Shown here: one piece after another, positions 4,572-27,111 of the stretch
How positions within the stretch are numbered: the first letter of the stretch is position 1
Layout: the number at the start of each line of letters is the position of its first letter
DNA from: a bacterium
Lineage (GTDB): Bacteria > JAMOTN01
Assembly: GCA_027062325.1 (NCBI GenBank)
Contig: JAMOTN010000054.1
Span: forward strand, 1-27,111
Length of the DNA stretch: 27,111 bases
Reading direction: 5' to 3'
Translations under genes and position numbers: made by a program
The notes under the pieces: model-generated
What the model saw: only the letters and a program-made list of their open reading frames with translations
Databases searched by the model: none
Told to the model about the DNA's origin: nothing

Positions 4572-6068
4572 TTGCAGCGCCTCGGTATAAATCGTGCAAT
4601 AATCTCCGGCTTGATAATTCTCCTACCATCACTTCACATAACCCTTCTTGCAGACTCATTCCGCCCCATAAAGTTTGCTGCCTTTTTAATAATTACAGCG
4701 CTAATAGCAATCTCAACTGAATCACTTCGCCTCCCTAAAAATGCCTGGTTGCTTTTTCCTATATTTCTAGCTCTGGAACCTAATTCCCCATCTATACTGC
4801 TCCTTGCAGCAATTCTAATGACAATGAGCGACTTCCTTCAAAAGAAAAATTTTGACTGGGAAATAGCAATTTCCACATTCCTTCCCATCCTCTTTTGGTT
4901 AATTTACAACGTCGAATATCCAAAAAAATTCATATCCACTTTCGGAAATAGATCTTACTTGTCCTCATTCTTAGCGGCAGCAATACCTTATACAGTAAAA
5001 TTTTCTCCCCCCCTTGCATATCTATCCACCCTAATAATAAGCTTCTCGGGATGTCGCGCTTCAACCCTTGCCTTAATGCTCATCTCAACAATAGCCATAT
5101 CTCGAAAATTTTATCCAAAACAATTTGCAAACATCCTTTTATTACTTACACTATCTATCCCTATCTTTTTTATTTATAAATCCGGGATAGCAACCAGAAA
5201 CTGGACTCCTAGTGCAAATGCAGAAAGAGTAAAGATAGTAACAAACTGCATAAACATCGCTCTAAAAAAACCAATGGGAATAGGCATTGGAAACACTCCC
5301 TCTAAACTTCTAGAAGAATCTCTAAAGCACGACTTCCCAGTAATTAGAACTGATTGGTGTCACAACGAATACATTCAAACAATAGTAGAGATGGGAATTC
5401 TAGGATTATTTCCAATAGTCTTTTTCATTATTCCACTAATTCACATTCTTACCAATCCAAAAATTCCTCCCAATTCCCACAAACTCCTCTACACCCTTAG
5501 CCTTACCAGCATAGCCTTCGAATCCCTGGTATTTTTCCCTCTTCATATTCCACCCGTAGCCTTTATTGCCCTTTATTCATTTACAAAGTTAATCTCAAAA
5601 TCAAGTTCAAAACCAACAAAATTAATCAATGGAGTGTGGAAAGTTGTAAAGTACTTTATTGCCTTATCCCTCCTAGTAAATGCTGCATTTATTATATGGA
5701 AAGCAAGAATCTATAGAGAGTTTTTAGACAAACCTTCCTTGCAAAATGCTCAAAAGGTTTTAAAATTTAAATTTGATCCTTTTCTGGCCTTCAAGGCAGG
5801 CTTTATAGCACAACAAAATGCTGATTTAAAAAATGCTGTAAAATTCTATGCAATGAGTGCTCTCCCCGAAGCAAAGTTCAATCTATCTTTAATACTTCTC
5901 CAACTCAATGAAAAAAAACAAGCTTGTAAAATTTTGAGGCAACTCAGTTCTCAATATCCATGGTTTGACAAAGCTAATAAACTGTACAAAAAAGCTTGTC
6001 TAAAGAGCCCATACCATCACTCAACTAAAAGTCGTTCTAAAACTTCAAACACATCTTCCTCGATGTAA
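4572..6068 (+). CDS. O-antigen ligase/polymerase-like membrane protein with C-terminal TPR-like region
   Basis: 498 aa, inner-membrane protein of the O-antigen ligase / Wzy (Wzy_C) superfamily, which transfers or polymerises surface polysaccharide from a lipid carrier outside the membrane. About ten hydrophobic helices run between residues 8 and 375. The family signatures are 'SGCRASTLALML' (159-170, with Arg162) and the periplasmic loop: 'KPMGIGIGN' (233-241) followed by 'CHNEYIQTIVEMGILGL' (263-279, His264). Residues ~390-475 are soluble and helical with TPR-like spacing, as in some larger family members. The TTG start (4572) is chosen because GGAGG lies 8 nt upstream. The last 52 bp overlap the convergent helicase gene, and the tail 'HHSTKSRSKTSNTSSSM' looks unstructured. 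No other polysaccharide gene is nearby, so the substrate is unknown. Confidence 0.85.
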   Translation: MQRLGINRAIISGLIILLPSLHITLLADSFRPIKFAAFLIITALIAISTESLRLPKNAWLLFPIFLALEPNSPSILLLAAILMTMSDFLQKKNFDWEIAISTFLPILFWLIYNVEYPKKFISTFGNRSYLSSFLAAAIPYTVKFSPPLAYLSTLIISFSGCRASTLALMLISTIAISRKFYPKQFANILLLLTLSIPIFFIYKSGIATRNWTPSANAERVKIVTNCINIALKKPMGIGIGNTPSKLLEESLKHDFPVIRTDWCHNEYIQTIVEMGILGLFPIVFFIIPLIHILTNPKIPPNSHKLLYTLSLTSIAFESLVFFPLHIPPVAFIALYSFTKLISKSSSKPTKLINGVWKVVKYFIALSLLVNAAFIIWKARIYREFLDKPSLQNAQKVLKFKFDPFLAFKAGFIAQQNADLKNAVKFYAMSALPEAKFNLSLILLQLNEKKQACKILRQLSSQYPWFDKANKLYKKACLKSPYHHSTKSRSKTSNTSSSM

Positions 6069-8599
6069 TAACTCACTAAAACCAATGGTAGATCTTTCAC
6101 TTGATAAAGTTGTCTCAAAACTTCTGCGTATCTTTTCAATTGGGAAGCAGCCTTTTTTTCACTTTTTGCACTGAGTTTAAATTCGAATACATAAACAGCT
6201 TTATCTCCAATAACCAACAAATCCACTCTGTTACCATCTCTTAACGTAACTTCCCATGCAAACACTAAATTTTTGCTTTCGCCAAACTCTTCCTCCAAAA
6301 AAGCAATAACCCTTTTTACAAATCTATTATTTTTCAAAAGCGCATGCTCAATATCTCCCTTTATTCTATTCACATTTAGGTAAGTTCCTTTTAAATCACA
6401 AAAGGCAGTAAATTCATCCAACCCAAACTCTTTAACTAGAAACTCACTCTTATCAATCAAAATATTCTCACTATTCAACTCATCTGGCCGCCAAATATCC
6501 AATATATCTTCAAATAGCTCCTTTCTATCACTTTTACTCTCTTTCCCTTCTTCTTTTATCAAATCTTTTGAAAACACCACATATAACTCATTTTCAGCCC
6601 GGCTAAGTGCTACATAGTAAATTCTTCTTTCTTCATTCAACTCTTCCAAGGAAGCAACCGCTTTTGAAACAAGCACCGCCACTTCATCTATTTTTCTATT
6701 TCCCCGCCTGTCAAAGAAAGCTACACCGTACTTACCGTAGCTCTGACCTCTACCCTTAGGTTTACTAACAAACACAACAACTCTTTCAAATTCCAGCCCC
6801 TTAGCCTGGTGCACTGTGTAAATAGAATAATCTTCACCCCTGGGCAACACCGCTGAAAATCTAAACTTCGGATAAAATCGAACAAAATTCTCTTTTAATA
6901 TTCCAGAAAATAACTCCCACTCTTGAAGTGCCACACTGTATGAATACGCAAAAGCTGCCTCAAGAGATAAATTGCTTCTCCTCACTGTGTTGGACTTTAT
7001 CTCTATTGCCTTATCAAAAGTAGCATCCTGCCTTGCCGTATTCCCAAAAAACTGCTCAAATCTTTTGAGACCCGCAGGTGGATAAGGAGAATAGTAAAAA
7101 TAGTAATTAGCGTATAGCTTATTCAAATCCACATCTCCTATGGGCACATCTCCTCCATAAACGCTGCCAACAAACCCCCTCTTATTAAGCTCTTTCCAAA
7201 GTTTATATACTTCAATATTTCTTCTAACTATGAAAGTACAATAGCCGTTTTGCAAAAATCGAGCCACATTTTCTAATGAGTCAGCACAATAAAATTCAAC
7301 CTTCCCATTACACTCTCTATTTACCTTTTGCTCACCTTCTCTAAAATAAGTTATTGCATACTCATTTAGTCTTCTTACTACTTCACTACAACTTCTCCAG
7401 TTATCCTCCATGATTAACACTTTTCCAACTTTATTCTCTATCTCATCTACAACAAAGTACTGACTTCCTCTAAAACCATATATACTCTGCTTCACATCTC
7501 CAACTAACACAGTATTTTTAAACCCCTTTCTCATATCCTCTAGAATCCTCAACTGCAGCATATTCAAATCTTGAACTTCATCAATTAGAAAATACCTGTA
7601 CTTTTCAAAAAAGTAATCTGAATTACTCCGCATTATCTTTTTGGCTTGCTGTTGTACAGATGAGTAAGTAATAACTCCTCTTTCTTTTAAAAACTTCCTC
7701 CATCCTCTGATAAACTCGATAAACTCTTCTTTAACCTGAATGTCAAATAAATTATCTTCTCCCTCTTCTATTTTTTTCACATCTTCCTCTATAGAATTTA
7801 AAAGATTGTAAACCTTGGAAAAGGAATTCTTTAAAAGTAGTCTTTTCAAAACATCATCAACATCAGATTTTTTAACAAACTCATTTAAAGCACTCCTATT
7901 CTTGGAACGCAGTGAAGACGATAAAAGTCCTTCCCTTATAGCCTCTTCTTTCAAAATCTCTATTTCAAACCTCAATTTTTTTAAAAGCTTAAACCATTTT
8001 CTCTCCACCTCATCAAGCCAATTATCTACTTCATCCCACATTAAGTCTTCAACAGAAAAGTAACTCTCCAACCTTTTTCGAGCAAAGTAGTTCATAATCT
8101 CATATTTTTTTTCATCGCTCTTTCTCAAATTCAAAAAGTGATCTATATATTCAGCTTTTAAAGCTTCCTCTAAAGTCCCTGTAACAAACTCCCTCGCTCC
8201 AACCTGGGTATAAAAATTCTCAACCACGGAGCTGAAAAATGAATGAAACGTGCCCGAAACAGCCTTTGAAAAATGCTTTGAAAATTCAACAATGTATCCT
8301 CTGAAATCCTCACAGTCCCCCCACACTTTTCTAAGAACAGAAAGAATCCTCTCCTTAAAGGAGCGGGCAGCTTCACGAGTAAAAGTTAAAAATACAATTT
8401 CCTCAGGCAAAACTCCATGTTTTAGAAGCTCAAAATAAATTCTAACCAGTAATGTAGTCTTCCCAGCTCCTGCAGAAGCTTTTACTAAAACCCCATTTCG
8501 AATAACACTAGGGTGCAAAACCTCATCAATTAACTTACTCTTTGGAATATACAAAAGAGCCTTCTCTGCAAGCCTTTTAAACATATCCTCCCTTCCCAC
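6017..8599 (-). CDS. AddA/RecB-like SF1 helicase with C-terminal RecB-family nuclease
   Basis: 860-aa UvrD-family helicase-nuclease, likely for double-strand-break end processing. Helicase motifs in order: Walker A 'ASAGAGKTT' (41-49), Ia 'TFTREAA' (72-78), II 'DEVQD' (340-344), III 'GDVKQSIYGFRGS' (367-379), IV 'NWRS' (400-403), V 'VHQAKGLEF' (596-604), VI 'YYVALSRAENE' (661-671). The C-terminal nuclease shows the full RecB-family set: His752 in 'GDIEHALL', Asp793, 'EFK' (806-808) and 'QLKRY' (820-824). AddA is usually ~1200 aa, so this is a compact form, and no AddB/RecC partner gene is visible. The GTG start lies 4 bp after the protease stop; an internal ATG at codon 6 is too close to its GGGAGG. 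Last gene of the DUF342-RseP operon. The 3' end overlaps the O-antigen ligase-like gene. Confidence 0.9.
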   Translation of the reverse strand: MGREDMFKRLAEKALLYIPKSKLIDEVLHPSVIRNGVLVKASAGAGKTTLLVRIYFELLKHGVLPEEIVFLTFTREAARSFKERILSVLRKVWGDCEDFRGYIVEFSKHFSKAVSGTFHSFFSSVVENFYTQVGAREFVTGTLEEALKAEYIDHFLNLRKSDEKKYEIMNYFARKRLESYFSVEDLMWDEVDNWLDEVERKWFKLLKKLRFEIEILKEEAIREGLLSSSLRSKNRSALNEFVKKSDVDDVLKRLLLKNSFSKVYNLLNSIEEDVKKIEEGEDNLFDIQVKEEFIEFIRGWRKFLKERGVITYSSVQQQAKKIMRSNSDYFFEKYRYFLIDEVQDLNMLQLRILEDMRKGFKNTVLVGDVKQSIYGFRGSQYFVVDEIENKVGKVLIMEDNWRSCSEVVRRLNEYAITYFREGEQKVNRECNGKVEFYCADSLENVARFLQNGYCTFIVRRNIEVYKLWKELNKRGFVGSVYGGDVPIGDVDLNKLYANYYFYYSPYPPAGLKRFEQFFGNTARQDATFDKAIEIKSNTVRRSNLSLEAAFAYSYSVALQEWELFSGILKENFVRFYPKFRFSAVLPRGEDYSIYTVHQAKGLEFERVVVFVSKPKGRGQSYGKYGVAFFDRRGNRKIDEVAVLVSKAVASLEELNEERRIYYVALSRAENELYVVFSKDLIKEEGKESKSDRKELFEDILDIWRPDELNSENILIDKSEFLVKEFGLDEFTAFCDLKGTYLNVNRIKGDIEHALLKNNRFVKRVIAFLEEEFGESKNLVFAWEVTLRDGNRVDLLVIGDKAVYVFEFKLSAKSEKKAASQLKRYAEVLRQLYQVKDLPLVLVSYYIEEDVFEVLERLLVE

Positions 8600-12109: not shown

Positions 12110-13054
12110 TTATTTTGCAGCCTTCAAAAGCTTCTGATACTCTTCGTACGCTTTTCTGTACTCTTTCAAAGCCTTCTTAACTTCAGGAGCGTTCACATCC
12201 TTTGCCTTTGCCATAGCGTCAACATATCTCTTGTAGGCTGCAATGTACCTGTCATGAGCTGCCTTCAAAGCCGTGGACTTAGTTCCAGCTACAGCTTTAC
12301 CCTTGGATGGCTGTCTTGCCCCCTTGTCTGGATTTGCAGCAACTTTTCCCTTACCTTTTTTCATGACCGGCTTTGCAGTTTCTTTCTGCTTGTTAGTCTT
12401 CACAGTAACAGAAGTGTTTGGCTTAACAGTTACATTTACTTCCTTAGATGCATTCTCTGGTTTAGTAGTTGTAGTCGTTGGCCTATTATTAGTGCTACTC
12501 GTCGGTTTAACTGTAACATTACTGCTACCAGTAGAAGTTGAACTACTAGGAGTAACAACCATTCCACCCGTTGCCTTCTTCTTTATAAACTTCTTATACA
12601 CAATGTAAGCAATTACACCAACAGCAACAACTGCCAAAATCGGAAGAAGTGGGCTGGAAGCCAATCCTGCAATTGCTCCACCAAGTGCTCCAAGCCCAGA
12701 GGCCACTGCACCACCAACTGCAGCCCCTGCAGAAGTTATAGCACTACCTGCTGCTGCTGCACCAGCAGTTATTGCTCCACCAAGTGCCGTACCTGCACCA
12801 GCAATTGCTCCACCTGCTGCAGCAACTCCAGCACTCAAGGCAGCTCCCGCTGCACTTGCTGCACCTGCTGCCACAGCTCCAGCAGCTCCAACCAAACCAA
12901 TTGCAGCCTTTACAAGAATTGGACCAACTATCGTCAACCCAACACCAGTAATAACTCCCCACAAAAACGTCTTTTTAGAAGCATAAACAGTACTACCAAA
13001 TCCAAACGTCGTAAGGAAAGCTACAATTAAGAAAACACTCAATATTTTCCTCAT
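12110..13054 (-). CDS. Exported Ala/Gly-rich (glycine-zipper) envelope protein with basic helical C-terminus
   Basis: 314 aa, family not recognised. ATG 13054 is chosen over the longer open frame because AGGAGG lies 8 nt upstream and the protein then begins with a signal peptide (MRKILSVFLIVAFLTTFGFG, likely cleavage after 'VYA' at residue 25). Residues 34-135 are almost entirely small or hydrophobic, with dense Gly-x-x-x-Gly/Ala spacing as in glycine-zipper membrane segments. A hydrophobic helix (136-153) ends in 'KKFIKKK'. A Ser/Thr/Asn/Pro linker (160-225) leads to a Lys/Pro/Ala-rich stretch (226-262) and an amphipathic Tyr/Lys/Ala helix (263-314, 'HDRYIAAYKRYVDAMAKAK'). It is monocistronic, with its own leader and terminator and a strong ribosome binding site, suggesting abundant expression. 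Topology and role (pore, anchor or structural layer) are open. Confidence 0.82.
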   Translation of the reverse strand: MRKILSVFLIVAFLTTFGFGSTVYASKKTFLWGVITGVGLTIVGPILVKAAIGLVGAAGAVAAGAASAAGAALSAGVAAAGGAIAGAGTALGGAITAGAAAAGSAITSAGAAVGGAVASGLGALGGAIAGLASSPLLPILAVVAVGVIAYIVYKKFIKKKATGGMVVTPSSSTSTGSSNVTVKPTSSTNNRPTTTTTKPENASKEVNVTVKPNTSVTVKTNKQKETAKPVMKKGKGKVAANPDKGARQPSKGKAVAGTKSTALKAAHDRYIAAYKRYVDAMAKAKDVNAPEVKKALKEYRKAYEEYQKLLKAAK

Positions 13055-13062
13055 AATTACCA

Positions 13063-13139
13063 CCTCCTGGAATTTTTTAAATTTCAACTTTAACACCACC
13101 TCCCAACACTTGTAATACACATGGAGGCTTCTACCTCCA
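13063..13139 (-). promoter_or_regulatory. Structured leader with hairpin and duplicated Shine-Dalgarno of the Ala/Gly-rich gene
   Basis: Minus strand. A perfect 6-bp hairpin TGGAGG-TAGAAG-CCTCCA occupies 13139-13122. Downstream are two copies of GGAGGTGGT, at 13103-13095 and 13067-13059. The second is the ribosome binding site for ATG 13054; the first precedes an in-frame TTG at 13087. The CCTCC arm of the hairpin can pair with its own partner or with either GGAGG downstream, so mutually exclusive folds are possible. The pairing is visible in the sequence; regulation is inference. Confidence 0.4.
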
Positions 13140-13164
13140 CTCATAATTTTAATGAATAGACCTA

Positions 13165-13237: not shown

Positions 13238-15868
13238 TCAATCCCAAAATTCAGCAACACTTACATTAACAGGTAATACTCCAAACTCATCAACTACAAC
13301 ATTTTCCATTATCTCTTTTACACGTTCAACATCATCCATATCCTCATTTCTAACATATAAAACAACCTCATCGTGAACAAGCAAAACGGGAATAAATCCT
13401 TCATTAACCAATTCCGTCACTGCCATTTTAAATACATCTGCTGCTGTTGATTGAACAGGATAGTTGTAAACAAAGTTAACAGCCTCTTCTTTCACTTTAT
13501 TTGAAACAGAGGCAAAATTCGCAATCTGAGCACGGCGCCCATAAAAACTGAAGACCTCCAAGTTTTTTTCTGCTTGGTAAATAAGCTCTTCATGCCAATC
13601 CTTTACTTTAGGGAAGTTTGCGTAAAAATTATCTATTATATCCTTTGCCTCATCCAAGCTTACACCTAGCATTCTAGCCAAGCCAAACGGGCTTTGCCCG
13701 TAAACAATAGCGTAGTTAATAGCTTTGGCAACATCTCTCTTCTCTTTAGTTCCAAACAACTTTTCTGCAACAGCAGAATGCACATCTTCTCCCTCTAAAA
13801 TTCTCATTAAATTTTCATCTTCAGCTAACCTAGCCACTAATCTCATCTCTATCTGTGAATAATCCGCTGCCAAAACTTTGTAGCCAACTGGAGCCACAAA
13901 CAGCTCCCTAAATCTCGCTCCATCTTCACTTTTAACTGGAACATTTTGAAGATTTGGATTCTTAGTAACAACACGTCCCGTCACAGTTCCAAATTGAACA
14001 AACTCCGGCTTCAATTGGCCAAAAAATGCTGCATCTTTCAAACTTTGAGCAATCTGTTTCAATTTATTTACCTTTCTCCAAATAAGAATTTTTTCTATAA
14101 TTGGATGTAAATTAGCCCACTTTTCTAGCTCATCAGCTCTCGTAGTTTTCAACTTTATAGCGTATTTTTTAAAGAGCGCTTCCCTTAACTGTTTAGGAGA
14201 AGAAAGGTTAAAGTTACCCAGTTCTGAAATTATCATTCTTTCAAGCTCTTTTTCTCTGTCATTAAACTCTACCCTCAACTCTTCCAACTTTTCTAAATCC
14301 AACACAACACTCTGATCACAAATTTTCTCCAATGCTGCGCTAAAATTCTTCTCAATATTGTATATTTTTGAAAAATTGCTCCAACTATAAGCTTCTAATC
14401 TATCCAACAATTTTCCCAACAAATCACTATCACTTCTACTCTCCCACGGAGCTGGCAACACAAATCTTTTCAGAACCTCTTCAAGCTCTACATTTTTAGA
14501 AAATACAATACTAAAAGCAACTTTCAAATCACCTGTTCTGATATACTCTTTACCACCTAACCCTAAATTTCTCAAACTCCACATTACCTTACTTTCCCCA
14601 TCAACTATCCCCTTACCATCAAAAACATTCCTCCCAAGCCTGGCAGCTAATTCTTCTACATCATTTTCCCTGTATAAATTCTCTCCTATTGCAACACTTT
14701 TTAATTCATACCTTGAGCAAAACTCGTATAATCTCTTCCTGTTAAAACCTTCCTCATTATCTAATGCACTCCCAAACTGCAACTTTTCAAGCCACTTCAA
14801 ACCTCTAAATGCTTCTAACAACTCATCATCCACACTTAACTTTATTAATCTTTTGTAAAACAAAACCTCTTCTAATTTGCCTTCAAGCCTTTCCCTATCC
14901 TTAGAAGGAAGACTGGCTAAATTTTCAAAAATTTTCTCCACAGATCCAAACTTTACAATCAACTTGGAAGCAGTTTTTTTACCTATTCCCTTTATACCGG
15001 GAATATTATCAGAACTATCTCCAACCAAAGCCTTCCAATCAGGCAAGAGCGACGGCTCAAAACCAAATTCATCTAAAAATTCCCCAACCCCTTTAACCTT
15101 CATCTCTCCATTAGTTTTGTACTCAAGTTGAAAAACATTTTCTCCCAACAATTGATTCAAATCCTGGTCAGAAGAAATTATAAACTTATATCCATTAAAC
15201 CCTCCCATAACAAAGGTTGCCATAAGATCATCTGCCTCTCTATCATCGTATCCAAGACAGGGAACCCCAAGTTTTAGAAACAATTTCCACAGCAATGGCA
15301 AGTTTTTCTTCAAGTGACTAGGCATAGGCTTTCTTTGAACTTTATATAATTCAAACATCTCCCTGCGCTTTAATTTTCCCTTTTCAATAAAAACAAGTGG
15401 AATAAAAATTATTTTTTTATCCGCCTTTGCAGCATCTTTACTTTTGAAATCAACTTTATCAAGAACAACCCTAACTTTATCTTCTTTCAACAAAAACAAG
15501 TCTAAATTATCAAAATCATCAACATCAAACACAAAGCGAGCAGTGTAGAAACTCCCACTTAATCCAAGTTTGCATAGAAACTTTGCAACCTCTTCCTGTG
15601 TTTTCTTCCATATCCTATACCCCAGCGTTAAATGAGTTGTAACAACTCCTCCCAAGGTCAACATAGGTACAGGAACTGCAAAAAAAGCTCTGTATGCAAG
15701 ATTGTACCCATCAAACAATAGATAAACTGGGATATGTTCTTCTGCAGTAGAAATAGCACTATTTTTATCTTTATTCTCACCCTTATCTTCCACTCTTTTC
15801 TCTACATTTTCAAACAAAGTAAAAGCTAAAAGGTCATTGCCTCCCTTTAATTTTTTCCTTCTACCCAT
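13238..15868 (-). CDS. polA: DNA polymerase I (5' nuclease plus polymerase; no visible proofreading motifs)
   Basis: 876-aa family A polymerase for gap filling and RNA-primer removal. Residues 1-45 are a charged N-terminal extension. The 5' nuclease follows: 'FDGYNLAYRAF' (52-62), 'YKVQRKP' (175-181), 'READD' (210-214), 'SSDQDLNQLL' (232-241) and helix-hairpin-helix 'DSSDNIPGIKGIGKKTA' (284-300). An insertion of ~45 residues (about 117-165) splits the usual link between 'VFD' and 'YKxxRKP'. The middle region (about 390-500) shows no Exo I DxE motif, so proofreading is probably absent. Polymerase motif A is 'AADYSQIE' (667-674, Asp669), motif B 'RDVAKAINYAIVYG' (711-724), motif C 'VHDE' (831-834). 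In motif B, Asp712 and Tyr719 replace the usual Arg and Phe. ATG 15868 follows 'AGGGG'. It lies 15 bp after the lipoprotein stop. Confidence 0.97.
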   Translation of the reverse strand: MGRRKKLKGGNDLLAFTLFENVEKRVEDKGENKDKNSAISTAEEHIPVYLLFDGYNLAYRAFFAVPVPMLTLGGVVTTHLTLGYRIWKKTQEEVAKFLCKLGLSGSFYTARFVFDVDDFDNLDLFLLKEDKVRVVLDKVDFKSKDAAKADKKIIFIPLVFIEKGKLKRREMFELYKVQRKPMPSHLKKNLPLLWKLFLKLGVPCLGYDDREADDLMATFVMGGFNGYKFIISSDQDLNQLLGENVFQLEYKTNGEMKVKGVGEFLDEFGFEPSLLPDWKALVGDSSDNIPGIKGIGKKTASKLIVKFGSVEKIFENLASLPSKDRERLEGKLEEVLFYKRLIKLSVDDELLEAFRGLKWLEKLQFGSALDNEEGFNRKRLYEFCSRYELKSVAIGENLYRENDVEELAARLGRNVFDGKGIVDGESKVMWSLRNLGLGGKEYIRTGDLKVAFSIVFSKNVELEEVLKRFVLPAPWESRSDSDLLGKLLDRLEAYSWSNFSKIYNIEKNFSAALEKICDQSVVLDLEKLEELRVEFNDREKELERMIISELGNFNLSSPKQLREALFKKYAIKLKTTRADELEKWANLHPIIEKILIWRKVNKLKQIAQSLKDAAFFGQLKPEFVQFGTVTGRVVTKNPNLQNVPVKSEDGARFRELFVAPVGYKVLAADYSQIEMRLVARLAEDENLMRILEGEDVHSAVAEKLFGTKEKRDVAKAINYAIVYGQSPFGLARMLGVSLDEAKDIIDNFYANFPKVKDWHEELIYQAEKNLEVFSFYGRRAQIANFASVSNKVKEEAVNFVYNYPVQSTAADVFKMAVTELVNEGFIPVLLVHDEVVLYVRNEDMDDVERVKEIMENVVVDEFGVLPVNVSVAEFWD

Positions 15869-17577: not shown

Positions 17578-20500
17578 CTATTTAATTCTCTCAAAATTCA
17601 CCATATCAAAGTACACAGCACCCTTCAACGCAGGATCCCTGTACTTACCAAGATAGAGATACACCCTCTTTACCTTCTTGAGATCAACACCAACTATCTT
17701 AAAGTCCTTTGTAAACTTTTGCCAAGTTGGATTGGAGTAGGGAATTCCAGTTGCTCCAAGTTTGATAATATCCATCATTACATCTCCTTTCGTCACATCA
17801 ATCTTTCCATCTCCATCCACATCAAATGCCAATCCAACTCTTATGCGCACCTTTCCATCGGTCTTTATGTAAACCGTCAACCTGTAAATTTTATCTTCTC
17901 CAACATCTAACATGTCCTTATCAATTATGTGATAAGCACATGGGAAGTCAAACGTTCCAAAGTCTCCTATCTCAACATACGTACGTCCTACTTTGACATT
18001 TCCCAACCTATCCTTCAACGCCACCTCTAACCATGCAGCATCTCCAACTTCGGCACTTCCAACCTGAACCTCTACTCTCTTAGCATCAGTGTATTCTCCT
18101 TCATCATAACTCACCAAGTTTGTACCCGGAATATCAAGTATCCACTTTTCATTACTTGCATAGTCAACAAGCACTTTATTGTTGTAATAGTCATATCCAA
18201 TTGCTATGAAGTCGCTCTTACTCCTCATAGGTATAACGTACGGCTTATCCGACGTAGCCTTAGGTTCAACAACAACTTCATAAAGCGGCCCAGGCACAGT
18301 CTTCATAAGCATCTTTGCATAATATGAATTTGTTGCATCTTTCAACACCTCAGCCGAGGAAGCCTCGTGATAAAGCTTAATCTTCACAAATGGAGCCTCT
18401 GCCAACCAATCGAAGAAGTCAAACTCTGCAGTTCCTGCATTCAAGGTCAACTCCAACTCTGTCTTTCTCTCATCACTATCTATCTGGTAAATGCCAGCAG
18501 TCTCTTTGTCTGGGTTCATAGTAACCTTAACACGCGTTGTATAATCTGAGTACCTTACATTACCGTACTCATCAACACTTCCTATAACCAACCTTATCTT
18601 AGAAGGAGCTCCAGCCTTTTCATCGTACTCTGCAGTTGCAGGATAGAGCAACACAACTCCCTCACTTGGATCATTCCACGTCACGTCATATATTTTCCAA
18701 TTTTTCTCACTAGTAGAGTCTTTATACAAGAACACCAACCTTGACACCTTATCAGATGGTTTAATAATCACCCTCTCCGTAGCAAATATGTATTTTGATA
18801 CCGAGTAAGGATTATAAGAGATCATATTGCGTAGTTGCGACTCACTCGTTACCTCATTGCTGTAAACAGCTATTACCGTTCCAATAACAGCAGACGTCGT
18901 AGCAGCAAGTGCGTTACCAGCCGTCTTATTATGCATTACAAATTCTCCAAGCCCTGGTACCCTGCCAAATTCATCAAATCTTGTGGAAGCATAGCTTGTC
19001 CACACGGAATCAACCGGCACCTCATTACCCCAACTGTCGGTTCCAATCACTTCAAAGTCTTGAGTCTCACCAACAACAACTTCAGGACTATCCGGTTTTA
19101 TATCTATATATTGAATCTTACCCGCCACAACTTTTATTATAGGAGTCCTGTCTTCTGTGGAGTTACCAAGTGACGAATTGGCAAACACATAGAACCTATC
19201 TCCAACTCTGCGCGTAGTGATGAATTCAACACTACAACTTCCATTCTTTATCTCAGTTGTCACAGCTCCACCATAAGCAGGCGGTACTAAACTCTTCACA
19301 AAGTACGGTGCCACTGGTGGATACAACAATGTATATGGAGTCTGAGGTCCTCTCAACAACTCAGAAGTTTTAGCTTCAATAGAAGCATAGGTCCACAACG
19401 CACTATATCTACTACTTTTGACCACATTTCCACCCTTATCATAAGCAATTGCTCTTATATTAACCTTTGCATCATCAGCACTGACTATTATTTCCTTACT
19501 AACATCAAGTTGCTCTCCATACCATGTATTCTCAGGAGTTCTAACTTCAACTATCTCAAACCTTGCAGGCTTTCCTTCGTAAACTTCAACAAGTCCTGCA
19601 ACCTTATTAACAAAGTTTCCTTTGGAGTCAACAACTATCATTCTAATTCCATAGAGTTTTTCCGGATATGGATAACGCGTCTTGTAATAAGCAAACTCTG
19701 CAGGATCAGACTTGTAGGTTGCTTCATAACTTGCATCATCCAATACTATGCGGAGATCCGGTAATACCTTGACAGGTTCTTTGGCATCTATATACACATT
19801 AAGACTAGTTGATGTATCTTCAGAAGGCTTAGGATCAAATACGGCGAATCCCGGCAAGGTAACTGTAGTGCCGTCAACTAGTGTAATATCCTGTGCCTCT
19901 TTTGAAATAAGTAGCGTATCATCAATGCTCATACCAAGATCTTTTGTTTCCAATCCATCTGGAACATATATTATTCCAGCATCTTTCAACTGCTTTAACA
20001 CCATCGGATCAATCTGTTTATAGTTTAAGCGAGAAACTGGGGGCACTGTAATTTCAGGAGCAGTTCTATCCTCTGCAATTGCAACCCTTGAGTAACCCCA
20101 TTGGCCAACATTTCCCATCTTATCCACAGCGCACGCCCTAACAGCATACTTAACAGCATCAGGAATATTGAACGCTGCTACACATGTTGGAGCATAAGCT
20201 GGAATTATCGTCTCAAATCCAAGACTATCTAACCATATCTGAGCTGGTGAATTATCAAAGCTTTCAACTTCTATCCTAACCTTTCTTATTGCTTCACCTA
20301 CTGGTACTCCAAGCTCAGTAAGAGATACTATGTAAAGATTCCACTTCTGGGTAGGCTGGTAAACGGTTCCAACAATAACATCTCCCTCTTTAGTGGCAAA
20401 TACATCCTGAGTCCACAAAGCTGAATACTGACCTTGATCTCCGTAGAGTATAACCCTTATCAACTTTGGAAGTTTAGAGGAAGACTCAACGTGTACCCAA

Positions 20501-23500
20501 AATGCCAAAGCTTCAAAGTCTCCATTCTCAACTCGATAAGGCTTATCAGCCGTGTAATCTAGGTATGCTGTCTGTGATGGATTTAGATCAAATTTAACTG
20601 CACTCTTTCCAGCATACACCCACTCATAGTCTATAGGCTTGACTCCTTCTGTAAATGTAACCTGTTCTGGCTTTTCTACATCCAAGAACCACCAACTGTC
20701 TCCATTCGCAGCAGTTGCTACAACCACGTAATCCACATTTATGTGTCCTGTTCCAGTGTAATCAACTTTAAATCCTTTCAACTCAACATCTCCAGTCGCA
20801 TTAGATACAAGCTGAGAGTAAGAAAGTACTATCGGTATCCACTTATCAGCTTTTTGTATAGGTGCCACATCCCTCTCAGTATCAGTGGCTATAGGCACAA
20901 AGGAACTTCTCCATGTGTAACGTCTATTTTTGAACATATACTTCAACTCTTTGGCACTTCCATCAACGCTAACATCAAGTGTAACCTTTAATTTGCTAGC
21001 CACACTCCCAAGGGCACTCGTATCAAACCTCACCCACATTACCAAAGCATCCGAAGTCTTCATTTTGTAAGGTGTATCAAATGAATATGCAAATCCTTCA
21101 CCAGCCTCAATTCTGGCGGACCTCTTTCCACTCAAAGCAACAGCTGTATCTACCATCCCAGGAGCTACGTCTTCCCAATTTTCATCAACAACCACTATCC
21201 TTGGTATCAAAGCTAAGCTCTCCTCACCTGCGTTTAAGTTAAGCTTAGTCTCAACACGCACCAAATCATACATAAGATCTACTTCTGGAAAGTCAACCGT
21301 TTGAATCGTGATAGAACGTATATATTTACCTTTTAACTTCTCAAGATCAATGGAAACTGGCTGCCACTTACCATAAGGCGGCAATCCACCTATATATTCT
21401 GCTCCAGTTCCGATCACAACTGCATTTGCTAGGTAATAGCTGTACTTGTCTGTAATCTCCCCACCCGGAGCTGAAGCCGTATTTACAGTTATCTTTATAT
21501 AGCTGTGACTCGTGTATTTACCTATGAATCTGAACCAAATTACCATCTCAAGATCTTGTGAATAAGGCACATAGTAATCCTGGTCCAACTGATGAGTCAA
21601 ATAGCCATTTCCAACCTGCTTGACAAATTTATTACCGCTTGCCGCCATATCTGGATCATCAACCACTCCATTTGTCCAATTTTCATCAAATAACAGGTCA
21701 GAAGTAAAGTTGCTTATAACACCCTGGGTAAACTTGGAAAGCGGTATCCATTTACCCTCGTTTATAGCAAGCTGCACTTGAGCTAGGTAGAAATCTATAC
21801 CCGTACCCTCTCTCAACGAAATCGTATCAACATTCATGTGGGTATCAACATCACTTTTAGCTACCACCTTAATAGAAATTCCCCTTATCTCCATACCATT
21901 CACACCTATCTCATCCGCTTTTACAACCAGTGGTGCCCATCCAGAAAGGCTTGTATCCGGAATTGCACCCAGCGCCTGAGCTGTTGGATCAACTGCAGAA
22001 TCACCGAACAAAACTTTCTTTATAACTCCACCGCTACCATCTAGCAGCGAAATCACAACAGCCCTTGGTTTGTAGTAAATAATCTTTTCGATTGTAGCTT
22101 CTTTGGTAGTAACAGAGTGAACAAAAGTCCATATAACAAGTTCACTCGAAGGAGCAAGATAAAGTGGTATAAGTGCATTTTCTAATCTAAACTCAGCGCT
22201 TTCTCCCTTAGCTGGAGTGAAGTATAGACTTTCTTTTCCACCAACCGAAGTTCTCAAATCCCACTGAACGTTTCCAATGTAATACACATTTTCCTTGAAC
22301 GTTGGTAAACTATCACTCTCATCTATCCAAGCACTTCTTCCAATGTCTGGAATTTTGTCCCAAACAGCTCCAAGCATACCTGCGTCCCCAGCATTTGTAT
22401 GAGGATTCGTGGTCTCTATTACAACATTGCACGGAATAGGAGGCGTTGTATCCACAACAACCGTATCAGAACGCGCCAAGAATATATCATCTATATACAT
22501 ATCAGCTGCCGAATCATTCGGTACGACTATTCTCACAAAATCGCACTCTGGCACATCAACCACAACTCTCACAAATCTCCATACCCCATTTCCAGCCGAG
22601 GTAACCACTGTCTCAAATGAAGCAGTATAAGACCCCTTCAAACTAATCGGCCAGTAAGTGTAGGCTCCCGTATCCACAGCATCTGCCATATCATAGTACT
22701 CAAATCTTAAGTTATGATTTGCCTCAGCATCTCCTCTTACCCACATTCCGAATATAAATTCACCAGTCCCCGGAGTAACTTCAACGTAAGCTTCAGCAGA
22801 AGGTTTAATAACCAAACTTCTTGCTACATAGTGGTAAATATCGGTGCTCAAAGCATCACTTTTGCTCTCTCCAACAATTTTCCAGTTATCCAAATCGTTA
22901 TCAAATGTCCATATGCAGAAGTAATTCCTGCTCAAATTACCATCTGGATCTTGAACCTCATCGTACGGTACCGCACATATCTCTAAAACTCCATCTCTCT
23001 TTGTACTGTATTTCGCCATGAAACCTTCCTCTGGATCCTGAGCAAAGTCAGAATATGCATTCTGGAGATTTTCGAAGACCTTTATTCCAGCAAGGTGGTT
23101 AGCTTCTTTATAATCACTCCATTCATCCACTTCAAATGGCACAGCAGCAAGAGCACTCTTATCAATCAAAATCTCAAACTTACCCATCAACGGAGTATTA
23201 AGTCTGAATGCCGGAATTTCCGCAGTTGCCCCGTTAAGTAAAATATCCTCAACATAAAATCCAACAGTGTAATATCCCATATCTGTGAACTTATCCAAAT
23301 TTACATCCAAGTAATACACATTATATCTTGCAGGATCTATATCTCCCTGGGCCGCCTTCCACGGAGCAAGTTTTTCTACGAACCAAGCAGAAGTTAAAGA
23401 GGCAGTTTCTGCAGTAGCCTCAAAAACTATCCTACCCTCTCTATTTCTAAAGTAGAACTTATGAATAGGAAGATATTGATTCTTGTTATCAAACAACGGA

Positions 23501-26500
23501 TCTCTAACTACAACCATAACACGTACCCAATCACCAACTAACACATTTGGATCCGAAGTGAATCCACTAGCATCTGCAAGCTTTCTATCAACTTTAGATA
23601 TATCCCATACTTGGAAGCTATCTTTATATATGATAGGTGCATCCCCTTTAAATGCCACATACTTAACAGTTCTCTTAATTTTCAAAGTTTGATACTCATG
23701 TTGATCATACTCCCAAGCCTTCCAAGAATACACATTGCTCACTAGCTTTTGATCCCAATCAACAACCTCTAACTTTTTGAAAGTATTGGCAGCAAAATTA
23801 AGAACTACTTTGGCTCCATTCTGAGTGTACCAATCACTCGTCGTTAATGTCACATCATACTCATTACCAGCATTCTCAGCTCCCTCAGGTGGAAGCATTA
23901 AACATGCCTGTATCTTCACTTTATCCTCATTATTCATGTGATACATTGATACATTGTTTCCAGGATAGTCTATATCTTTTGAAACTTTATGTAATAATGG
24001 AAGTAATTTAGCGTATCTCTTCCAACTCACAACATTAACTGTCAATTCTTTTTCTCCCAATGACTCAACTTTTACCTTATAAGGAACGTACAACAAATTA
24101 CTCAAATCTTTGATAGGCTCTTTTGGCCAGTTTGTAACATGGAAAGCTACAGGAGTACTGTGCACCTTTACATCACCATTAACTTCTAATCTCAAAGCAA
24201 TTGTCTCATCTCCACCAAAAGCCCTGTATTCATCGTGTCTATTATCAAACGGAATAAACAAAGGATTCGAATAAAGATCCGGCACAAAGTCCTTAGCAAA
24301 GTCATAACCATTACTTATTAATATTTCTCCAGTATCTTCATCTACTCCATCATTTTTGTACATCTTAAATTCGTACACCAAATGAGCTGCAGCAAACCTT
24401 CTAAGCTTCTCCAGATGTTCTGTAGTAAAGTTACTAAACGCCGAATCGTTATACAAAAGCACTGGTGGCTGTGCTATAGCATCTCCCTTCCCATCCAATT
24501 TCAAACCGATCTGACCACTTCCAAATACCACAACTGTCAATCTTATCCAACCAGTTGAGCTTGTTAAGTCGTTAACTTTATAGTAAACTGTATCACTAAC
24601 TGTTGGATCATTGCGGAAGATTATGGCTTCCTCGCTTGGTTCAAATCCTCCATTTACTAATATCACAGCAACTATTGAATCAGCAGGTTTTAACGTTATA
24701 GCCAGATTCTGATTTTGTCTTATCCACTTTTCATATACAACCAAACTATTACTAATTTTCTGAGAAAGTTCCCCACTATTTCCAAGGTTCACAATTTTTC
24801 CATCCGCAGTGTATAAGCCCAGCTTTCTCAACACTTCAAGAATCGAGGCTTTGGTTCCTTGAAGGGCTTTATTCCACAAAGTGCTACTAATTCTACTTCT
24901 ATCAACTGGAACTTTCCTCCACAATCCATCTCTAGGATTCCCCATATTTAGTTTATCTTTACCTACCATGTAGTTAGTAACATCTTCATCAAAGTAAGCC
25001 CATCCTTTGAAAGCTATCTTATTTCTAAAGGACCTGGGCTCAACATAAGCAACTAATACGTTATCTAAAAATCTATCACTGAACACCATTTCAGTAGTAG
25101 ATCCATTCTTCAAATAATACATTGTACGGATACCATCCTCTACTCCCCCTTGTTCTCCCACATAATAAGGCAAAGCAAGTGTTTTAAATACACCTACAAT
25201 AGTATCCTTAGAATCAACCTTTTCCCCATTAAGCATCAAAGCAACCTCAATACTCACCCTATCAGGCAATATGTACGTTGGAACAACAGGTATCTTAATA
25301 ACTTCTTCAGAGCAGTAAATTGGCCTGAACAACTCAATATGCCATTCTACATCTTCAGCATGTGCAACACTCCAGTTCTCGCCTGCTCCCACAACAAACC
25401 ACTTATCAACTAAAGTGTCATTTTTAGGATCATAGAAGTCAACTTCCAAAGTAGCAGTTCCATAACTACTCAACTTACCAAATGGACCATATAAATTGAT
25501 AAACGTAACCTCACCAGGATACCATCTTTTATTTGCTACAACACCAACTATAGGGCTAGACACATAAATAACATCCTCATATGTATAAGTAGCTTTATTT
25601 CCTGCAGGATCCTTCACCGTAATTGCAACATCATACCAACCTTCTTTGGCATCAAGCGGTATTTCCCACGTTCCTACCCAGAAAGTTTTTTCGTAATCTG
25701 CCTCAGAATCATTCCAAGCATCAATTTCAGCTGAACCCTCTATTGGTATAACACTCTTGTCTGCAAAGTTTTGAGCATCCACAGTGTACTTCTTACCCTC
25801 TGGGGATATAAATGTAATCTCAACCTTTTTGAAGAACTTATCAGTCTTAAAAACAGGATCATCAACATCAACGGGAATATACAACGCATCAATTCCACGA
25901 ATGACAGTCTTATCATCATCTTCTGTCACATCCTCCATTCCATTGTATCTCTCTGCCCATATTTCAAACGTTGCTACTGTAGGAGGGGTAGCATCGTATA
26001 TCACACGAATAATATTACTTTTCTTGACATTTTTGTAGTAAAGGTCTGCTATTTCCTGCGCGGACAAAGCACGATTGTAGACAAACATGTCATCAACACG
26101 ACCATTAAGAGGTTCAGCTGCCCACCTATAATTTCTTCCTAACTTGAAAGTTGAGATCATACGTATTTTTTTACCCGGAACATACTTTTTACCTACCTCT
26201 CTGCCATTAACATAGAACCTAAACCATTGGCCATCATATACTCCCACTAGGAACCTCCACTGGTTAATGTTATTCAAATCCTCGATATCAATACGGGTAC
26301 TGCTCCCATCTTCAAAATAGGCGTAAAACCTCATAAACTTACTGTTGTTGTAAAAGTAAGCTTGCATTCCCATCTCCCACGTGTTTGTTTTTACTTCCCA
26401 TATTTGCTGGATATTCTCATTGGTTAAACCATTAAATTTATACCAACATCCTATTGTGAATTGAGAAACAGGTTGATTTCTCAAAGGATTTGGTAATTCA

Positions 26501-27111
26501 ACATAAGTGTTAACATCTCCTTTGAATTCTACACTTCTTCCGAGTTGAGGAGTTGCCCCCTCTTCAAAACTCACCTGGCTTCCAACGCACTGTCCGTCGC
26601 ATCCGTTTCCGCTAATATCGTTGTAGGTGTTATCATCAAACGACCAGTATGCAAGTAATCCTTCATCTATCCTATATTTAGGAAATGCGATATCATCACT
26701 CAAAGCACCGTGCTCATCAAGAGCTCTCACATCAAGGTAGTATATATTATCAAGGTATCCTTCGTTATAAACAGCCTGTTTTAGCAACTCAAACCTAACC
26801 TGACTCCAAGCATTTGCAAGGCCATCACCGAATGGTCCTTCCTCTCCATAAGAAACCGTGATCGGCGACTGAGCTGTCGGCCATGCATAAAGTTTTACCC
26901 TTCTCACCGTTCCGTAAAGCTGCTGATACCCTTCAATTGGACAGTATCCTATATAGTTGTCAAGGTAATCCGTACTGATTCCATGTTCACTTCTTATATT
27001 TCTCACAACACTAGTCGGTCCTTTCACTTTTACTCCATCAAGAAGGGCCCAACCCATAGAATGCCCGTTTCCTGCATCTCCGCGCCTTATATCATAGAGT
27101 ATCGAGTGCCA
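17578..27111 (-). CDS. Giant modular surface protein (LamG, jelly-roll and Ig-like domains); N-terminus outside window
   Basis: The frame stays open from the stop at 17578 to the right edge. An ATG at 27057 is internal or uncertain, since 18 more in-frame codons precede it without a stop. At least 3177 aa. Modules in protein order by base position: Fn3/Ig-like start (to ~26680); LamG/concanavalin-like domain ~26670-26030 ('AYWSFDDNTYNDISGNG' to 'RALSAQEIADLYY'); Ig-like ~26025-25560 ('DPAGNKATYTYEDV'); a large unassigned region ~25560-22930; five jelly-roll-like modules ~22925-20205; then Ig-like domains with recurring D-x-x-G-N turns to ~17975; and a C-terminal jelly-roll-like module with an EF-hand-type loop 'DVDGDGKID'. 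No sortase motif, S-layer homology domain or C-terminal membrane helix is seen, so attachment must use another route or the missing N-terminus. Probably an S-layer, sheath or adhesin component; carbohydrate or Ca2+ binding is likely. Confidence 0.9.
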   Translation of the reverse strand, partial: WHSILYDIRRGDAGNGHSMGWALLDGVKVKGPTSVVRNIRSEHGISTDYLDNYIGYCPIEGYQQLYGTVRRVKLYAWPTAQSPITVSYGEEGPFGDGLANAWSQVRFELLKQAVYNEGYLDNIYYLDVRALDEHGALSDDIAFPKYRIDEGLLAYWSFDDNTYNDISGNGCDGQCVGSQVSFEEGATPQLGRSVEFKGDVNTYVELPNPLRNQPVSQFTIGCWYKFNGLTNENIQQIWEVKTNTWEMGMQAYFYNNSKFMRFYAYFEDGSSTRIDIEDLNNINQWRFLVGVYDGQWFRFYVNGREVGKKYVPGKKIRMISTFKLGRNYRWAAEPLNGRVDDMFVYNRALSAQEIADLYYKNVKKSNIIRVIYDATPPTVATFEIWAERYNGMEDVTEDDDKTVIRGIDALYIPVDVDDPVFKTDKFFKKVEITFISPEGKKYTVDAQNFADKSVIPIEGSAEIDAWNDSEADYEKTFWVGTWEIPLDAKEGWYDVAITVKDPAGNKATYTYEDVIYVSSPIVGVVANKRWYPGEVTFINLYGPFGKLSSYGTATLEVDFYDPKNDTLVDKWFVVGAGENWSVAHAEDVEWHIELFRPIYCSEEVIKIPVVPTYILPDRVSIEVALMLNGEKVDSKDTIVGVFKTLALPYYVGEQGGVEDGIRTMYYLKNGSTTEMVFSDRFLDNVLVAYVEPRSFRNKIAFKGWAYFDEDVTNYMVGKDKLNMGNPRDGLWRKVPVDRSRISSTLWNKALQGTKASILEVLRKLGLYTADGKIVNLGNSGELSQKISNSLVVYEKWIRQNQNLAITLKPADSIVAVILVNGGFEPSEEAIIFRNDPTVSDTVYYKVNDLTSSTGWIRLTVVVFGSGQIGLKLDGKGDAIAQPPVLLYNDSAFSNFTTEHLEKLRRFAAAHLVYEFKMYKNDGVDEDTGEILISNGYDFAKDFVPDLYSNPLFIPFDNRHDEYRAFGGDETIALRLEVNGDVKVHSTPVAFHVTNWPKEPIKDLSNLLYVPYKVKVESLGEKELTVNVVSWKRYAKLLPLLHKVSKDIDYPGNNVSMYHMNNEDKVKIQACLMLPPEGAENAGNEYDVTLTTSDWYTQNGAKVVLNFAANTFKKLEVVDWDQKLVSNVYSWKAWEYDQHEYQTLKIKRTVKYVAFKGDAPIIYKDSFQVWDISKVDRKLADASGFTSDPNVLVGDWVRVMVVVRDPLFDNKNQYLPIHKFYFRNREGRIVFEATAETASLTSAWFVEKLAPWKAAQGDIDPARYNVYYLDVNLDKFTDMGYYTVGFYVEDILLNGATAEIPAFRLNTPLMGKFEILIDKSALAAVPFEVDEWSDYKEANHLAGIKVFENLQNAYSDFAQDPEEGFMAKYSTKRDGVLEICAVPYDEVQDPDGNLSRNYFCIWTFDNDLDNWKIVGESKSDALSTDIYHYVARSLVIKPSAEAYVEVTPGTGEFIFGMWVRGDAEANHNLRFEYYDMADAVDTGAYTYWPISLKGSYTASFETVVTSAGNGVWRFVRVVVDVPECDFVRIVVPNDSAADMYIDDIFLARSDTVVVDTTPPIPCNVVIETTNPHTNAGDAGMLGAVWDKIPDIGRSAWIDESDSLPTFKENVYYIGNVQWDLRTSVGGKESLYFTPAKGESAEFRLENALIPLYLAPSSELVIWTFVHSVTTKEATIEKIIYYKPRAVVISLLDGSGGVIKKVLFGDSAVDPTAQALGAIPDTSLSGWAPLVVKADEIGVNGMEIRGISIKVVAKSDVDTHMNVDTISLREGTGIDFYLAQVQLAINEGKWIPLSKFTQGVISNFTSDLLFDENWTNGVVDDPDMAASGNKFVKQVGNGYLTHQLDQDYYVPYSQDLEMVIWFRFIGKYTSHSYIKITVNTASAPGGEITDKYSYYLANAVVIGTGAEYIGGLPPYGKWQPVSIDLEKLKGKYIRSITIQTVDFPEVDLMYDLVRVETKLNLNAGEESLALIPRIVVVDENWEDVAPGMVDTAVALSGKRSARIEAGEGFAYSFDTPYKMKTSDALVMWVRFDTSALGSVASKLKVTLDVSVDGSAKELKYMFKNRRYTWRSSFVPIATDTERDVAPIQKADKWIPIVLSYSQLVSNATGDVELKGFKVDYTGTGHINVDYVVVATAANGDSWWFLDVEKPEQVTFTEGVKPIDYEWVYAGKSAVKFDLNPSQTAYLDYTADKPYRVENGDFEALAFWVHVESSSKLPKLIRVILYGDQGQYSALWTQDVFATKEGDVIVGTVYQPTQKWNLYIVSLTELGVPVGEAIRKVRIEVESFDNSPAQIWLDSLGFETIIPAYAPTCVAAFNIPDAVKYAVRACAVDKMGNVGQWGYSRVAIAEDRTAPEITVPPVSRLNYKQIDPMVLKQLKDAGIIYVPDGLETKDLGMSIDDTLLISKEAQDITLVDGTTVTLPGFAVFDPKPSEDTSTSLNVYIDAKEPVKVLPDLRIVLDDASYEATYKSDPAEFAYYKTRYPYPEKLYGIRMIVVDSKGNFVNKVAGLVEVYEGKPARFEIVEVRTPENTWYGEQLDVSKEIIVSADDAKVNIRAIAYDKGGNVVKSSRYSALWTYASIEAKTSELLRGPQTPYTLLYPPVAPYFVKSLVPPAYGGAVTTEIKNGSCSVEFITTRRVGDRFYVFANSSLGNSTEDRTPIIKVVAGKIQYIDIKPDSPEVVVGETQDFEVIGTDSWGNEVPVDSVWTSYASTRFDEFGRVPGLGEFVMHNKTAGNALAATTSAVIGTVIAVYSNEVTSESQLRNMISYNPYSVSKYIFATERVIIKPSDKVSRLVFLYKDSTSEKNWKIYDVTWNDPSEGVVLLYPATAEYDEKAGAPSKIRLVIGSVDEYGNVRYSDYTTRVKVTMNPDKETAGIYQIDSDERKTELELTLNAGTAEFDFFDWLAEAPFVKIKLYHEASSAEVLKDATNSYYAKMLMKTVPGPLYEVVVEPKATSDKPYVIPMRSKSDFIAIGYDYYNNKVLVDYASNEKWILDIPGTNLVSYDEGEYTDAKRVEVQVGSAEVGDAAWLEVALKDRLGNVKVGRTYVEIGDFGTFDFPCAYHIIDKDMLDVGEDKIYRLTVYIKTDGKVRIRVGLAFDVDGDGKIDVTKGDVMMDIIKLGATGIPYSNPTWQKFTKDFKIVGVDLKKVKRVYLYLGKYRDPALKGAVYFDMVNFERIK
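20205..22925 (-). repeat. Five divergent jelly-roll-like protein modules within the giant gene
   Basis: Protein-level repeats of ~150-165 residues at about 22925-22470, 22290-21810, 21700-21240, 21205-20705 and 20705-20205. Each has a strand of the type 'FIFGMWVRG', 'LVIWTFVHS', 'MVIWFRF', 'LVMWVRFD' or 'LAFWVHVE'. Most then have a 'KWxPxxxxxxxL' segment ('KWQPVSIDLEKL', 'KWIPIVLSYSQL', 'KWNLYIVSLTEL') and end in a 'YIDDIFL', 'NVDTISL', 'NVDYVVV' or 'WLDSLGF' strand. This resembles carbohydrate-binding galactose-binding-like folds. There is no obvious DNA-level identity, so the duplications are old. Confidence 0.6.

Follow-up and report, generated by a model that had tools for sequence, protein, structure and literature searches.

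A divergent DNA polymerase I from a probable thermophile with natural Asp and Tyr at the dideoxynucleotide-selectivity positions of the O helix

Thermo Sequenase is Taq F667Y, and the double mutant Taq R660D/F667Y was reportedly engineered by Li et al. in 1999. The stretch of DNA analysed here, 27,111 nucleotides of a bacterial contig (the window), encodes a DNA polymerase I (PolA) with both of these residues in its natural sequence. The locus raises the question of what kind of enzyme this is, how rare the Asp and Tyr pair is among cellular genomes, whether it was inherited or acquired independently, and how the enzyme would treat dideoxynucleotides (ddNTPs).

A divergent Pol I and its host

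The polA gene (13238–15868; this and all other window features described here lie on the minus strand) encodes 876 amino acids from an ATG start. By Pfam, the product has the architecture of a bacterial Pol I, with a DNA_pol_A domain (E 1.4e-88) and an N-terminal 5′–3′ nuclease (5_3_exonuc and 5_3_exonuc_N; PF02739 and PF01367), and in a profile search it is the sole match to PF00476 in the assembly (1.65 Mb, 81 contigs, 84% complete). In a MAFFT alignment to E. coli PolA, all five of the catalytic residues of the polymerase (D705, E710, K758, Y766 and D882 in E. coli numbering) are kept, as D669, E674, K715, Y723 and D833. The alignment places the catalytic D669 and the steric-gate E674 in motif A (ADYSQIEMR, 13841–13867), and D833 in motif C (H832-D833-E834, 13367–13375). 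The best fold matches of the AlphaFold2 model are Klenow, Taq, M. smegmatis Pol1 and Bst (polymerase part, VIA-align Z 31–42). The protein falls under the NCBIfam equivalog cut-offs (TIGR00593 and PRK05755, 465.6 of 600 and 481.9 of 720 bits), which are curated naming thresholds and describe no functional feature, and it is at most 40% identical to the other Pol I found; both facts mark it as divergent. Despite the NCBIfam miss, we file it as a divergent Pol I, since it passes the Pfam cut-offs and has the fold and architecture of the family. As a whole, the locus is best explained as encoding the host's ordinary single Pol I, serving gap filling and primer removal, and we hold this with considerable confidence.

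The 5′ nuclease domain (residues 47–355, 14804–15730; Pfam and alignments) retains most of the catalytic Asp residues in the alignment and is predicted by sequence to be a nuclease. It holds an insertion of roughly 40–45 amino acids (15538–15344, residues about 111–175) around the strand that bears the metal-binding Asp63 in E. coli. Asp63 aligns with Ile161, and a VFD sits upstream near residues 113–115; owing to the insertion, the equivalent of Asp63 is hard to assign. The 3′–5′ exonuclease region (residues 361–495, 14384–14788) is degenerate by alignment to E. coli D355/E357, and much of it is modelled at low pLDDT. In the alignment, the positions of the exo I Asp-x-Glu, D355 and E357, fall in a gap, and the protein does not carry the residue set of a proofreading (DEDDy) Pol I (D355, E357, D424 and D501). 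Because exo I is in a gap and the region is poorly predicted, proofreading is expected to be absent, as in the Thermus-type sequence, the enzyme lacking its catalytic residues.

Among the genes of the assembly is one for a full-length reverse gyrase (E 4e-250, 1–1171 of 1172), and the 16S rRNA gene (L315) has 61.7% GC versus 38% for the window. Taken together, these two features make it very probable that the host is a thermophile, in line with a guess made in the preliminary description of this DNA. Its relatives in the genome collection are all at the 'same domain' level, with none nearer, and it probably comes from a poorly sampled phylum. Adjoining polA downstream is a 344-residue protein (12110–13144) with no Pfam match, rich in Gly and Ala in its first half and in Thr and Lys later. 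A few genes downstream of polA, a UvrD-type helicase with a C-terminal PD-(D/E)XK-like match (6017–8599) resembles AddA/RecB-type repair nucleases. A 3159-residue protein (17578–27057) reaches nearly to the window's end; its single Pfam match is a laminin-G-like domain close to the N terminus. No Rfam matches were obtained in the window.

The O helix and the rarity of its residue pair

Motif B reads RDVAKAINYAIVYG (residues 711–724, 13697–13738). Two alignments, phmmer to Taq and MAFFT to E. coli PolA, agree on its register, in which R711 corresponds to Taq R659 and E. coli R754, K715 to K663 and K758, and Y723 to Y671 and Y766; the invariant Lys, Tyr and Gly make this register secure. Asp712 (GAT, 13733–13735) then occupies the position of Taq R660 and E. 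coli R755, and Tyr719 (TAC, 13712–13714) that of Taq F667, E. coli F762 and T7 Y526, while Ala720 (GCT, 13709–13711) replaces Taq G668. The preliminary description had proposed these three assignments and read the codons of the first two, and the alignments and translation agree with it throughout. Residues 708–722 (13703–13747) form a single helix in the AlphaFold2 model (DSSP; pLDDT about 90), the predicted O helix. We looked in the alignments and the model for a placement of Asp712 or Tyr719 off this helix, and both lie inside it, as does Ala720. Ahead of the helix, the segment from D(V/I)H to the R659 equivalent (13739–13786) is shortened, with an offset of 16 versus 22 in most Pol I and 14 in T7, and the N–O loop is six residues shorter than usual.

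How often the two residues occur was surveyed in 386 genomes from 260 families, which were picked as the nearest available and not at random. A DNA pattern for motif B allowing Phe or Tyr at position 667 (Taq numbering) matched 313 of them. Tyr667 was found in 12 and Asp660 in 11 of the roughly 313 genomes whose motif B was recognised, counts that are lower bounds, since DNA patterns miss variants departing from the searched form. Both residues together were found in one of the 386 genomes only, that of the window, and a looser Asp pattern concurs. Under independence 0.42 joint cases would be expected, so that the pair is rare, yet no commoner than chance given the single frequencies. On a quick tree of the sampled bacterial rows, Phe/Tyr changed state at least seven times and Asp at least four; as read from these sequences, each residue has arisen repeatedly in cellular genomes. 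Given the tree-wide spread of Tyr (12 of about 313 genomes, seven Phe/Tyr changes on the sampled tree), the published claim of an almost universal Phe762 in cellular PolAs needs qualifying (PMC9069017).

A whole-protein search of genome contigs returned 80 loci, all with Tyr and none with Asp660, whose sources by title are nearly all Actinomycetota, because the search peptide ADYSQIEM matches that group. No close relative of the window's PolA is among these 80 loci (at most 37% identity). Among 50 cellular sequences, 4 of the 12 Tyr667 enzymes but none of the 38 Phe667 enzymes have Ala668 (p 0.002); a short loop is likewise seen in 4 of the 12, versus 1 of the 38 (p 0.009). Both comparisons were made post hoc and ignore relatedness. 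They suggest that Tyr667, Ala668 and the short loop may be structurally coupled; one Phe-Ala case (G292) lies outside the 50-sequence set. A Tyr-Ala motif B (NYA) is also present in the cellular Pol I of three other genomes (G004, G152 and G375; L114, L115 and L120). A further genome, G380 (L119), combines Tyr with a short loop and is the row most similar to the window's PolA in the tree (37%). The enzyme is a rare combination of already known features within a divergent Pol I, and not a new kind of enzyme.

Independent gain or inheritance

According to the preliminary description, it is unusual for a natural, probably thermophilic enzyme to have both residues. Among cellular Pol I this stands, in view of the single case among 386 genomes, whereas for natural polymerases overall it does not. 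Indeed, T7 gp5 (V01146) reads RDNAKTFIYGFLYG, with Asp and Tyr both natural, and a viral scan gave at least 120 stretches, of which at least 103 had RD..K...YG..YG together with an upstream D(I/V)H-like element in a PolA context. The pair is thus routine in T7-like phage enzymes, and the idea that it is unique in nature was rejected, T7 carrying both residues. Also rejected was inheritance of the Tyr from the actinobacterial Tyr clade, which is not the nearest in the 56-row tree described below.

The polymerase domain, or its fingers, could have come from a T7-like phage by gene transfer or recombination, with Asp, Tyr and short loop inherited together. T7-like polymerases do join these three features, with their own offset of 14, and an AU test on the careful tree did not reject the grouping of the window's PolA with the T7 set (p 0.46). 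In that tree (56 rows), however, the T7 set is split off at 100/100, and the window's PolA sits on a long branch among the bacterial-type Pol I (46 rows, 99/99), in a bootstrap that had not converged; the T7 set is a long branch as well, and two such branches are drawn together. Furthermore, motif A is bacterial (DYSQIEMR versus DASGLELR in T7), identity is 24.5% to T7 but reaches 40% with bacterial Pol I, and the enzyme has a 5′ nuclease domain and lacks a T7-type exonuclease, so that the T7-like phage layout of an active 3′–5′ exonuclease and no 5′ nuclease domain is not its own. Motif A, the order of the domains and similarity over the whole protein thus favour, but do not prove, convergence over T7 ancestry, that is, an independent origin of the T7-like O helix as judged from these sequences, and we regard a phage source as quite improbable.

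Alternatively, in a fast-evolving gene both residues might have drifted in separately and neutrally, with other changes cancelling their effects and ddNTP discrimination remaining ordinary. The single frequencies of Tyr (12) and Asp (11) in about 313 genomes make one joint case compatible with independence, and polA does sit on a long branch and under the NCBIfam equivalog cut-offs. Tyr, however, abolishes discrimination in all the backgrounds cited (Taq, E. coli Pol I, T7 and M. tuberculosis), and its tracking of Ala668 and short loops across lineages, in small numbers examined post hoc without regard to relatedness, hints at coupling. Such a coincidence therefore appears unlikely. An assembly error or a broken polA copy is harder still to credit: the genome, at 84% completeness, is a draft of 81 contigs, but the reading frame stays open for 876 residues with motifs A, B and C intact, the genome has no second polA, and the change from Arg to Asp takes more than one base. 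A bolder version of convergence would have the cellular Pol I of a heat-loving lineage, one lacking any sampled relative at phylum level, rebuild the T7-type fingers (short N–O loop, Asp660, Tyr667 and Ala668) as a coupled, speed-raising set, yielding a thermostable enzyme for sequencing that is exonuclease-deficient and uses the ddNTPs almost uniformly; we consider this conceivable but rather doubtful. The reading that we prefer, and think quite probable taken jointly, is that the host's own Pol I, without proofreading residues, has independently gained Tyr667 and Asp660 in its O helix and with them a mechanism of low ddNTP discrimination.

Predicted ddNTP use and comparison with known enzymes

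The precedents invoked in the preliminary description, namely F667Y and R660D/F667Y in Taq and the natural Tyr of T7 and mycobacterial Pol I, are found in the literature and in the sequences (PMC4068291, PMC4215692, PMC3997047; T7 Y526; Tyr in all 80 of the mostly actinobacterial loci). In Taq, the 6000-fold discrimination against ddNTPs gives way to a 2-fold preference for them upon F667Y, and in the structure the Tyr hydroxyl is within bonding distance of the β-phosphate (PMC3997047). Taq R660 contacts guanine O6/N7, and R660D abolishes the ddGTP preference (PMC4068291); in R660D/F667Y the ddGTP bias is gone and dye-terminator sequencing is improved (PMC4068291; PMC4215692). T7, with its natural Asp and Tyr, uses the ddNTPs nearly equally (PMC4068291). 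M. tuberculosis Pol I, which has a natural Tyr, is reported to be unable to discriminate against ddNTPs, the review's wording being that of the exonuclease domain (PMC5694481).

With Tyr at the position of Taq 667 and E. coli 762, the window's PolA belongs to the Tyr-type family A enzymes. By gaining this Tyr and the Asp at the Taq R660 position independently, its O helix would have become locally T7-like. The Tyr hydroxyl would bond the β-phosphate of the incoming nucleotide and offset the missing 3′-OH, such that ddNTPs are used almost like dNTPs, and with Asp in place of Arg, the guanine O6/N7 contact from which Taq's ddGTP preference arises would be lost. The precedents of Taq F667Y, T7 and M. 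tuberculosis Pol I make it likely that ddNTP discrimination would be low, as the preliminary description had predicted. We are less sure that all four ddNTPs would be used evenly, which might equally well prove true or false: the R660–ddGTP effect was demonstrated in the Taq background only, and evenness is an extrapolation from an enzyme to which this one is only about 33% identical. That distance also counts against the predicted ddNTP behaviour in general, as do the differences near the active site, namely G668A, Asn (N798) at the aligned position of E. coli R841, and the short N–O loop, which could alter ddNTP discrimination.

As ddNTPs are not encountered in cells, the advantage in nature is probably unrelated to them and would lie in faster or more robust dNTP insertion. 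In T7, Y526F halves the specific activity (PMC13228545). The sequence, its alignment, the position of the residues in the modelled helix, the loss of the exonuclease residues and the rarity of the pair are observed; the biochemistry and thermostability of the window's PolA, as well as the selective reason for its residues, we infer. If the preferred reading is true, nature has made Taq R660D/F667Y unaided in an exonuclease-deficient enzyme of a thermophile, which would be directly usable for terminator chemistry and would test whether Asp660 and Tyr667 act alike in a distant background.

Compared with known systems, the window's PolA shares with Taq the Pol I fold, a 5′ nuclease fused to the polymerase, a 3′–5′ exonuclease that is predicted to be inactive here too and a probably thermophilic source, and with the engineered R660D/F667Y the same two residues, here natural; it is only about 33% identical to Taq and departs from it in G668A, in the loop shorter by six residues and in the 5′ nuclease insertion. 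T7 gp5 naturally has Asp519 and Tyr526 (RDNAKTFIYG), and its loop ahead of the O helix is short as well, but unlike the window's PolA it has an active 3′–5′ exonuclease, depends on thioredoxin, lacks a 5′ nuclease domain and has another motif A. The actinobacterial and mycobacterial Pol I likewise have Tyr naturally at the F667 position and lack an exonuclease active site, but they carry R, S, T, A or H at position 660 (D in none of 80 loci) together with Gly668, and form a separate branch. The Pol I of G004, G152 and G375 share NYA in motif B, with R or G rather than D at 660. What sets the window's PolA apart, as judged from its sequence, is the unusual occurrence of the Asp and Tyr pair in a cellular, 5′-nuclease-fused, probably thermostable Pol I predicted to lack proofreading.
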